Shown piece after piece: positions 53,981-62,963 of a stretch of DNA of 64,000 bases. The position numbers and the translations under genes were made by a program. Position 1 is the first letter of the stretch. Every line of letters starts with the position of its first letter. The DNA lies in assembly GCF_014863605.1 (NCBI RefSeq), contig NZ_CP062252.1:3915001-3979000 (forward strand), written 5' to 3'. The notes beneath the pieces are model-generated. The model was not told the origin of the DNA and made no database searches. It worked only from the letters and a program-made list of their open reading frames with translations. The DNA comes from Pseudomonas allokribbensis (GTDB lineage: Bacteria > Pseudomonadota > Gammaproteobacteria > Pseudomonadales > Pseudomonadaceae).

Positions 53981-54217
53981 ATGCAAAAAATTCTGTTGTC
54001 CCTGGCCCTGCTCGCCGGCCTTTGCGCTCAAGCCCAGGCCAGTGAAGAAGCTGTCGCCTACCGCTACGGCATGCAACTGGACATCGCGCAGGTCGTGAGC
54101 ATCACCCCGGTCGCCGACGTCTGCGGCGTAGTGCCGGTCGAGATGACCTACCTCGACAGTCACGGCGCAAAACACATTCTTCAATACAGCGAGTTCGGCA
54201 CTGGCTGCTCCAACTGA
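53981..54217 (+). CDS. DUF2790 secreted protein
   Basis: A 78-aa protein with a signal peptide of about 20 residues ending AQA and a compact mature domain with two Cys: [32 protein letters not shown], matching DUF2790. The family is Pseudomonas-restricted and linked to metal or stress genes. Here it lies between cynS and the carbonic anhydrase gene, separated by 84 and 11 bases, so it is probably co-transcribed with them. A paralogue is encoded at 62021. Confidence 0.85.
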
Positions 54218-54983: not shown

Positions 54984-55002
54984 GACACATCAGCGATACA
55001 GC
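54984..55002 (+). promoter_or_regulatory. 19-bp motif shared with the EGKCG peptide gene
   Basis: GACACATCAGCGATACAGC, 57 bases upstream of the hydrolase ATG, differs at one position from 58508-58526 upstream of the EGKCG peptide gene. This suggests a shared promoter or operator, possibly for an ECF sigma factor; that type assignment is inference. Confidence 0.55.
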
Positions 55003-58507: not shown

Positions 58508-58526
58508 GACACATCACCGATACAGC
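58508..58526 (+). promoter_or_regulatory. 19-bp motif shared with the hydrolase gene
   Basis: GACACATCACCGATACAGC lies 76 bases upstream of the EGKCG peptide ATG. It matches 54984-55002 at 18 of 19 positions. Confidence 0.55.
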
Positions 58527-58602: not shown

Positions 58603-58806
58603 ATGACCAAACTCTCGAAAACCTCCATGACGCTCGGCCTGCTGCTTGCCGGTGGCCTGGCCCTGTCCAACGCCGCTTCGGCATCTGAAGCGTTCAGCGT
58701 CAAGCAATTGGATCACGGCTACAGCCAGACCCAGGCCCAGGCCGACACCCCGGAAAAAACCTCGGAAGGCAAATGCGGCGAAGGTAAGTGCGGTGCCGGC
58801 GAATAA
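58603..58806 (+). CDS. Secreted HvfA-like EGKCG peptide
   Basis: A 67-aa protein: a signal peptide of about 28 residues (ending ASAS) and a 39-residue mature part ending in two tandem EGKCG motifs (residues 55-59 and 60-64; Cys58 and Cys63). EGKCG repeats after a Sec signal are the hallmark of HvfA/bufferin-type copper-binding RiPP precursors, whose cysteines are modified to oxazolone-thioamide groups by a DUF692 (MNIO) enzyme with a DUF2063 partner. Neither partner lies in this window; only a DoxX gene follows. The ATG has a GGAG site. Modification is inferred and depends on enzymes acting in trans. Confidence 0.75.
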   Translation: MTKLSKTSMTLGLLLAGGLALSNAASASEAFSVKQLDHGYSQTQAQADTPEKTSEGKCGEGKCGAGE

Positions 58807-58863
58807 CCCTCTTCACGGGGCACGCCGGTGTCCCGTTTTCCCTTGATTGAACGGAGCCATCCC

Positions 58864-59379
58864 ATGACCACTGCTCTCTCGACGGCCATCAAAGGCCTGC
58901 ACCTGAACCTCGACCGCGCAGGCCAATGGCTGGCGCCGCTGACCCTGCGCCTGTTCATCGCCTGGGAGTTTTTCGAATCGGGCCTGGAGAAATTCAACGG
59001 CCAGAACTGGTTCGAAGACATTCAGGACCGTTTCCCGTTTCCCTTCGATCACTTGCCGGCGACGCTGAACTGGGAGCTGTCGATGTGGGCCGAGCTGATC
59101 TGCGCGCTGGCGATCCTGATCGGACTCGGCACGCGGATCTCGGCCATTTCGCTGATCGTGGTGACGGTCGTCGCCACCGCCGCCGTGCACTGGCCGGCAG
59201 ACTGGTCGTCGTTGAGCGAACTGGCGCAGGGCTACGCGATCACCAACAAGGGCTTCGGCAACTTCAAGCTGCCGGCGATTTACCTGGCTGCGCTGGTGCC
59301 GTTGGTGTTTGCCGGGGCCGGCAAATTGAGTGTGGATGCGTGGCTGGCGCGTTTTTTCTGGAAACGCGCCAGCCGCTGA
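58864..59379 (+). CDS. DoxX family membrane protein
   Basis: A 171-aa protein with four to five membrane helices and the DoxX pattern, [23 protein letters not shown] near residue 20 and later [27 protein letters not shown]. DoxX proteins are quinone-associated membrane factors; the HvfD protein in HvfABCD operons belongs here. It starts 57 bases after the EGKCG peptide gene on the same strand with a CGGAG site, so the two are likely co-transcribed. This mirrors the ends of an hvf-type operon with the middle missing. Confidence 0.85.
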
Positions 59380-62020: not shown

Positions 62021-62272
62021 ATGAAAACCCTGATCCTTGCCTTCACCGCCCTCCTCGCCACTGGCACCGTGTTCGCCGCCGAAATGCCGGACAACACGGT
62101 CATTCACGACACCAACGGCTTCTACGTGCACCTGGATGTCGACAAAGTCCTCTCCAGCACCGATATTTCCCAAGCCTGCGGCGTCATTCCCGCACGACTC
62201 AACTACCTCGACCACCAGGGCCGCGAACATGTGCTGGACTATCAAGTGCAAGGCAGCGGTTGCACCAACTGA
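62021..62272 (+). CDS. DUF2790 secreted protein
   Basis: An 83-aa protein with a signal peptide of about 20 residues (ending FAA) and the DUF2790 core ACGVIPARLNYLDHQGREHVLDYQVQGSGCTN with two Cys. It precedes the two-component regulator gene by 19 bases, so it may share its message. It is a paralogue of 53981-54217, and DUF2790 genes beside copper-type two-component systems are a recurring Pseudomonas arrangement. Confidence 0.85.
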   Translation: MKTLILAFTALLATGTVFAAEMPDNTVIHDTNGFYVHLDVDKVLSSTDISQACGVIPARLNYLDHQGREHVLDYQVQGSGCTN

Positions 62273-62291
62273 CCAGTGAGGCGCAGTGCCC

Positions 62292-62963
62292 ATGAATATC
62301 CTTGTCGTCGAAGACGAACCCAAGGCCGGCAATTACCTGCTCAACGGCTTGCAGGAACTGGGTTACAACGTAAGCCTGGCCCGTGACGGCGCCGACGGTC
62401 TGCACCTGGCGCTGGAACACGACTTCGACGTGATCGTGCTGGACGTGATGATGCCCAAAATGGATGGCTGGGAAGTTCTGCGCCGGCTGCGCAAGGAAGC
62501 CGACACGCCGGTGCTGTTCCTCACCGCCCGCGACGACATCGCGGATCGGGTCAAAGGCCTGGAACTGGGCGCCGACGACTACCTGATCAAACCGTTTTCC
62601 TTCGCCGAACTGGTGGCGCGCCTGCGCACCCTGACCCGGCGCGGGCCGATCCATGAAGAAGAGCAATTGCAGGTGGCCGACTTGCAGATCGACGTGCTCA
62701 AACGCCGGGTCACCCGCGCCGGCAGCCGGATCACCCTGACCAACAAGGAATTCGCCTTGCTGCAACTGTTCGCCACCCACACCGGCCAGGTGCTGTCGCG
62801 TTCGCTGATCGCCTCGCGGGTGTGGGACATGAACTTCGACAGCGACACCAATGTGGTCGATGTCGCCGTACGCCGCCTGCGGGCGAAGATCGACGACCCG
62901 TTCCCGCTCAAGCTGATCCACAGCGTGCGCGGCATCGGCTACCGCTTCGACACCCAGCCATGA
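62292..62963 (+). CDS. OmpR-family response regulator (CopR/CusR-like)
   Basis: A 223-aa regulator: receiver domain to about residue 120 with phosphoacceptor Asp in [15 protein letters not shown] (Asp51) and Lys101 in LIKPFSF, then a winged-helix domain ending [26 protein letters not shown]. The heavy-metal-type subgroup (CopR, CusR, IrlR) fits best. Start at ATG 62292 is used; a GTG two codons earlier is possible. Its stop overlaps the kinase start (ATGA). Confidence 0.9.

Follow-up and report, generated by a model that had tools for sequence, protein, structure and literature searches.

An EGKCG peptide gene of Pseudomonas allokribbensis as a probable part of a dispersed HvfABCX pathway, modified in trans and under BfmR-type control

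The gene pair hvfA-hvfX, found in a 64,000-nucleotide stretch of the Pseudomonas allokribbensis genome (hereafter, the window), probably belongs to an HvfABCX thiooxazole-metallophore pathway that is dispersed but intact, is modified in trans, and has its units under BfmR-type control. All parts of the pathway are present and fall into their families, they are spread over separate places, and a direct-repeat box is shared by their upstream regions. HvfB and HvfX are co-inherited across the genus, and selection acts on hvfA.

The two genes of the locus are as follows.

58603-58806, forward strand: hvfA, a 67-aa precursor with a Sec-type signal peptide (by eye) and two C-terminal EGKCG motifs
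58864-59379, forward strand: hvfX, a 171-aa DoxX-family membrane protein of the HvfX family (NF050144, PF07681)

A 57-bp gap lies between the stop codon of hvfA and the ATG of hvfX at 58864. The hvfX protein scores 156.9 bits with the NCBIfam model NF050144 (HvfX, cut-off 80) and 79.3 bits with PF07681. The HvfA peptide terminates in EGKCGEGKCGAGE, three residues past the last EGKCG motif, and the two EF-hands of the EfhP type are absent from hvfA. The peptide passes the NCBIfam two-motif model NF050137 (26.5 bits, cut-off 19.5) but fails the full-length HvfA equivalog model NF050188; because the score with the latter is 23.9 bits against a cut-off of 95, the peptide is regarded as HvfA-like and not as an HvfA equivalog. 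There is no Pfam match for the peptide, and the DUF2282 domain of Buf1 bufferin precursors is absent from it. The reading frame, the gap, and the NCBIfam match confirm what had been read from the sequence alone, namely a 67-aa secreted peptide with two terminal EGKCG motifs, 57 bp before a DoxX gene. The flanking genes, both on the minus strand, encode a glutaminase and an L,D-transpeptidase, and neither a DUF692 nor a DUF2063 gene is found among them, so that the local absence of the two middle genes of the operon, also claimed earlier, holds.

The DNA pattern for a single motif, GARGGNAARTGYGG, occurs five times in the 6.57-Mb genome, compared with zero occurrences of the reversed control. 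Two occurrences are in hvfA, two are in a second secreted open reading frame, and the last falls in a short open stretch encoding no secreted peptide. Across 22 hvfA sequences (231 pairs), pS is 0.330 and pN is 0.073 (ratio 0.22), and the EGKCG part is the most conserved, with a pN of 0.044. As judged from this purifying selection, the hvfA frame behaves as a gene.

The genome is a single contig, and both searches suggested by the sequence-only reading, for DUF692 genes and for other EGKCG peptides, gave positive results. Three DUF692 proteins are encoded, one of which is an HvfB-family MNIO located 1.53 Mb from hvfA-hvfX (NF003818, 418.2 bits, cut-off 360). Directly after it lies the gene of its DUF2063 partner HvfC (NF050145, 259.5 bits, cut-off 142; also PF09836 and PF22106). 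The closest solved structure to HvfB is 3bww, and the conserved His/Asp/Glu/Asn blocks, which we take to contain the residues binding iron, are retained. A small secreted Cys-containing precursor frame was sought upstream of hvfB; none was seen there, and a hidden precursor at that position was dropped. The other EGKCG protein is an EfhP-type precursor at 5.61 Mb (L017), 135 aa long from its likely start, in which one pair of the same motif is followed by two EF-hands (two stretches of PF13202). HvfA and the N-terminus of this protein are identical at 32 of 64 aligned positions.

The pathway genes are located at three separate places (2.44, 3.97, and 5.61 Mb) and not in one operon. Because hvfA, efhP, and hvfBC stand apart, the genome holds two substrates without an adjoining enzyme and one enzyme pair without an adjoining substrate. 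The word orphan, applied to the peptide earlier, therefore suits the locus only and not the genome, over which the parts of the pathway are spread. Between the two possibilities offered at that time, enzymes acting from elsewhere are strongly favored by the distant HvfB-HvfC pair, and an unmodified peptide is disfavored. Two other clusters of the same genome should be mentioned. At ~1.44 Mb (L015:4700-7086 on G000:C1), a Buf1-type cluster comprises a DUF2282-type peptide (by eye), BufB, a DUF2063 protein, and a DoxX protein; BufB scores 381.3 bits with NF050167 (cut-off 310), and the DUF2282-type gene has no GATACA within 220 bp upstream. At ~1.48 Mb (L016:3175-6300 on G000:C1), a 649-aa fusion of an MNIO with a SagB-type dehydrogenase domain adjoins an alpha-ketoglutarate HExxH-type protein, forming a different RiPP-like cluster.

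We infer a scheme in which the peptide is modified in trans and binds a metal, the BfmR-type regulator binds its boxes in this species, and HvfX has a role. A single HvfABCX (oxazolin/thiooxazole metallophore) pathway would consist of three physically separate units, the hvfA-hvfX pair being one of them. HvfA would be made with a Sec signal peptide and recognized by HvfC in the cytoplasm, where HvfB, encoded at its distant place, would turn the two EGKCG cysteines into 5-thiooxazoles before export. The oxazolone-thioamide chemistry assumed in the sequence-only reading has been revised to 5-thiooxazole for HvfA-type peptides, according to the available text of PMC13097082. The same text reports that the related FonBC modified a two-repeat substrate and not a one-repeat substrate; HvfA has exactly two motifs, as in the substrate modified by FonBC. 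For the two cysteines of a two-repeat FonA peptide, a mass loss of ~8 Da is given there. Modified HvfA may bind copper or another soft metal after its export, copper being the metal reported for relatives in the available parts of PMC12452194 and PMC13097082, and the membrane protein HvfX may assist maturation or metal handling. The HvfB-HvfC pair would also serve the EfhP-type EGKCG/EF-hand protein as a second precursor. What keeps the units matched would be a GAYACA-N5-GAYACA-like box at each of them, to which a BfmR-type response regulator would bind.

The features of the window related to this box are given below.

58508-58524, forward strand: direct repeat GACACATCACCGATACA of the form GAYACA-N5-GAYACA, predicted to be the BfmR box for hvfA-hvfX
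54984-55000, forward strand: second copy of the box, GACACATCAGCGATACA, one of the four exact matches in the genome
55060-55833, forward strand: alpha/beta hydrolase gene with a signal peptide (by eye); PF12697, 90.1 bits

The pattern SACACANNNNCGATACA is common to the regions before hvfA, hvfB, and efhP, and it has exactly four exact matches in the 6.57-Mb genome, which precede these three genes and the hydrolase gene. The half-sites are GACACA and GATACA before hvfA, efhP, and the hydrolase gene, and CACACA and GATACA before hvfB. The second box of the window also precedes the orthologous gene in G074 and in L167, and the hydrolase is possibly a further target. Since its gene occurs in the fetched hvfX flanks of only one of 80 named loci, it is probably a local addition, and the idea of the hydrolase as a fixed part of the pathway was dropped. 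The hvf boxes have a period of 11 bp, whereas the published TACAA-N3-GATACA spacing is one base shorter (10 bp). An ECF-type promoter was dropped as the shared element, since an 11-bp direct repeat better fits an OmpR-type regulator.

Across the genus, 106 exact matches to the strict box are found in 59 genomes, compared with 16 for the reversed pattern. At least 57 of the 106 precede a listed hvfB, hvfX, or EGKCG gene by no more than 600 bp; among the remaining 49, some precede efhP genes beyond those listed and others precede unrelated genes. We examined 80 named Pseudomonas hvfX loci, those of the closest HvfX proteins among 260 found, using also a relaxed form of the box (NACACAN4NGATACA). 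An EGKCG peptide is adjacent to hvfX in 21 of the 80 loci, and the box is present in all 21 (8 strict and 13 relaxed). In total, 66 loci have the box (24 strict), which stands directly before hvfX where hvfA is missing, and even the relaxed form is absent at 14 of the 80. The hvfA gene is missing beside hvfX in 59 of the loci (3 of them with less than 600 bp of upstream sequence), and the HvfA peptide is therefore dispensable to the pathway. In L235, the signal-peptide part of hvfA upstream of hvfX is deleted; the 33-aa remnant retains the motifs, and the relaxed box is also retained.

The 30 HvfB loci whose DNA was examined, the best-scoring of 84 genomes, consist of 12 with and 18 without an adjacent precursor. 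The relaxed box is present in 15 of the 18 loci without a precursor and absent in 3, and it is found within 800 bp of hvfB in none of the 12 loci with one. We also examined the 600 bp upstream of the EGKCG gene at 30 loci, each from a different genome; GATACA is present there in 26 of 26 genomes that bear a BfmS-like kinase and in 1 of 4 others. Among the 26, a pair of half-sites is found in 19 and a single GATACA in 7, and all of these 7 genomes have a precursor beside HvfB. G194 has a compact operon and no BfmS-like kinase; its hvfA is immediately preceded by a sigma-70 family gene (PF04542, PF08281; L164:6306-7604), which suggests another mode of control there.

The candidate regulator is encoded close to the enzymes: genes for an OmpR-type regulator and a kinase are found 3.4 kb from hvfC. 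The regulator shares 88-98% identity with its counterparts in four relatives, and PDB look-ups of the regulator and the kinase gave general family matches only. The promoter of the bfmR-like gene carries GATACACAGCGATACA and GATACACTGCAATACA, GATACAnnGC sites with a 10-bp period that fit the published footprint consensus. In P. aeruginosa, BfmR binds its own promoter at GATACAnnGC sites, as well as the PA4107 promoter, according to the available portion of PMC4148453. The part of PMC8025907 that is available gives TACAA-N3-GATACA as the ChIP-seq motif, in which GATACA is the shared half, and describes a GACACA half-site as needed at phoB; the published half-sites are GATACA and GACACA (PMC4148453, PMC8025907). 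It also reports that the three strongest BfmR peaks are at bfmR, pa4103, and pa4107 (efhP-PA4106-PA4105), and that efhP is the gene most activated by BfmR.

Gene order connects the regulator with the pathway in other genomes. In G045 (L147), the precursor gene, hvfB, and hvfC are followed on the opposite strand by hvfX, a ferric-reductase-like gene, and the kinase and regulator genes, and the same order is found in G039 (L165); it is that of PA4107-PA4101 in PAO1. No counterpart of the ferric-reductase-like gene of G045 was found in the examined stretches of the studied genome. With a kinase call of at least 560 bits, a cut-off that we chose (the next match is at 354), the BfmS-like kinase is present in 107 of 199 genomes, comprising 70 of the 84 with HvfB and 37 without it. 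Because of the latter 37, the kinase must have other work too. All 51 genomes in which hvfB and hvfX are split have the kinase, and in each of the 14 HvfB genomes without the kinase, no more than 5 kb separates hvfB from hvfX. The OmpR-type regulator of the window itself (62286-62963) was dropped as the controller: it is 35% identical to the BfmR-like protein, and no link to the box was seen.

The genus sample is one draw of 199 genomes, with presence defined by score cut-offs of 360 for HvfB and 80 for HvfX. By these profile scores, HvfB is present in 84 genomes and HvfX in 85, with both in 83 and neither in 113. The exceptions are G107 (HvfB only) and G075 and G183 (HvfX only); G075, a genome of 87% completeness, gives a partial HvfX match. 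An exact match to the double EGKCG pattern is found in 81 of the 84 HvfB genomes versus 2 of the 115 others, while some match to the MNIO model occurs in 165 of the 199 genomes. The genes hvfB and hvfX are less than 5 kb apart in 32 of the 83 genomes and apart in 51. In 26 of the 51, the two genes are on one contig, with 18 of these pairs more than 100 kb apart; the other 25 pairs are on different contigs, which in draft assemblies is weaker evidence of separation. EGKCG places were listed for 70 of the 83 genomes with the double EGKCG pattern, and precursor distances are from those 70.

A gyrB tree with midpoint root was built for 90 of the 199 genomes, a non-random choice made to include the exceptions and by the coordinates available. 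On this tree, HvfB undergoes 16 changes, HvfX 15, and the two jointly 17, with agreement in 87 of the 90 genomes. In 500 simulations with an independent second gene, joint changes numbered 24-31 and agreements did not exceed 66. Some of the joint losses could be single deletions, since the genes adjoin in part of the tree. G011, which has lost HvfB, HvfX, and the kinase, looks like the clearest loss from separate places, as HvfB and HvfX are more than 1 Mb apart in its tree neighbors G000 and G036. The efhP gene of G011 is decayed, with the signal-peptide part lost and the frame changed in the EF-hand part. G183 is a counter-example, in which HvfB and the kinase are lost, yet efhP and hvfX look intact. 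In L338 (G046), efhP is frameshifted at the EGKCG part, and this genome also encodes the EGKCG peptide next to hvfX.

The near one-to-one co-occurrence of HvfB and HvfX, the EGKCG pattern in 81 of 84 HvfB genomes, the box, the kinase in 51 of 51 split genomes, and the gene order therefore favor an intact pathway acting in trans. Counted against it are G183, the 59 of 80 hvfX loci without hvfA, the 11-bp versus 10-bp period, the CACACA half-site at hvfB, the loci without a box, the strict boxes that do not precede a listed hvf gene, and the kinase in 37 genomes without HvfB. It is improbable that HvfA works unmodified as a small thiol peptide with DoxX as its sole partner. The lack of an enzyme at the hvfA-hvfX locus and the intact-looking efhP and hvfX of G183 without HvfB are consistent with such a peptide, and the available text of PMC12452194 allows that unlinked precursors stay unmodified; the co-occurrence of HvfB and HvfX, an HvfB-HvfC pair with no other local substrate in sight, and the decay of efhP in G011 speak against it. 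Even less can be said for modification by BufB and BufC, encoded in the Buf1 (DUF2282) cluster (1.44 Mb), in place of HvfB, which we consider very improbable. Although that cluster offers peptide, MNIO, DUF2063, and DoxX genes with a BufB above its cut-off (381.3 bits), the EGKCG pattern tracks HvfB and not MNIO proteins in general, which occur in 165 of 199 genomes, and GATACA is missing from the 220 bp upstream of the DUF2282-type gene. We give hardly any credence to hvfA-hvfX as a relic, left over from a broken operon and out of use. The frequent absence of hvfA beside hvfX and the loss of the signal-peptide coding part in L235 could be read in that way, but a pN/pS of 0.22, the strongest conservation being in the EGKCG part, and the box in 21 of 21 hvfA-hvfX units are contrary to disuse.

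A separate question is which regulator binds the box. The site may belong to another OmpR-type regulator of similar specificity, such as a CzcR-, PhoB-, or CopR-like protein, and we judge this unlikely. In P. aeruginosa, CzcR and PhoB have targets in common with BfmR according to the available part of PMC8025907, a second OmpR-type regulator is encoded in the window at 62286-62963, and the period is 11 bp rather than 10 bp. However, the BfmS-like kinase is more frequent where the strict box is present (51 of 59 genomes) than where it is absent (56 of 140), the half-sites are identical to the published BfmR sites, and the gene order also argues for a BfmR-type protein.

The pathway proposed here, dispersed and served in trans, resembles the HvfABCD/oxazolin (Buf_EGKCG) clusters in that a secreted EGKCG precursor, the HvfB MNIO, its partner HvfC, and the DoxX protein HvfX are all in the genome. 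It differs in its three separate places, in the short precursor with a single motif pair, and in the second precursor with EF-hands. The bfmRS-PA4103/4104-PA4105/4106/efhP region of P. aeruginosa has like proteins, the same order as in L147 and L165, and the same half-sites, whereas efhP, hvfX, and hvfBC are apart here, each with its own box, and a short hvfA precedes hvfX. PA4106 is a DUF692 protein and PA4105 a DUF2063 protein in the available text of PMC4053335, and PA4104 would be HvfX from its position in the gene order. EfhP of PAO1 has four EGKCG repeats, as described in the accessible part of PMC11559002. At the "group III" efhP locus of P. fluorescens Pf0-1, efhP without adjoining DUF692 and DUF2063 genes was already noted in 2014; the available portion of PMC4053335 connects the missing genes neither with a shared box nor with a precursor-enzyme pathway. 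Stand-alone Buf_EGKCG precursors are likewise unlinked to an MNIO gene, and the part of PMC12452194 at hand asks about their modification in trans, gives 67 of 2583 genomes with Buf_EGKCG but no MNIO gene, and describes EF-hand fusions of EGKCG precursors with mention of EfhP. The present case differs from these precursors by the assignment of a regulator and of a particular enzyme pair at a distance. The available portion of PMC8719888 lists Pseudomonas clusters that combine DUF692, DUF2063, and DoxX with short peptides.

In the literature searched, we found no paper joining "BfmR" with "MNIO", nor any printed assignment of the shared box, the regulator, and an enzyme pair at a distance. The printed question on trans modification of unlinked precursors thereby obtains a testable case with an enzyme pair, substrates, and a regulator, and work on BfmRS is linked to that on MNIO enzymes. 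The EGKCG repeats of EfhP would also be read differently from the possible iron-sensing site proposed in the available text of PMC11559002. Mining of single gene clusters would miss split pathways of this kind.

Two groups of small proteins near the box or the regulator genes should also be described. In L119, L126, L132, L136, L138, and L145, and likewise in L342, L344, L349-L354, and L357, the box precedes a Cys-free secreted peptide with tandem AEGGSDRL/AEGGADRLQELRER repeats. The start codon is ~90-105 bp past the box, and the signal peptide resembles that of some HvfA peptides; the two peptides examined with the PtrA model NF041599 match it weakly, below the cut-off. These peptides were dropped as a part of the pathway, as they have no cysteines and the best match here is 64% over ~40 residues. 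Two DUF2790 proteins (PF10976) are encoded in the window at 53981-54217 and 62021-62272, one of them directly before the OmpR-type regulator at 62286-62963, and DUF2790 relatives adjoin the BfmR-like gene in G016 and G039.
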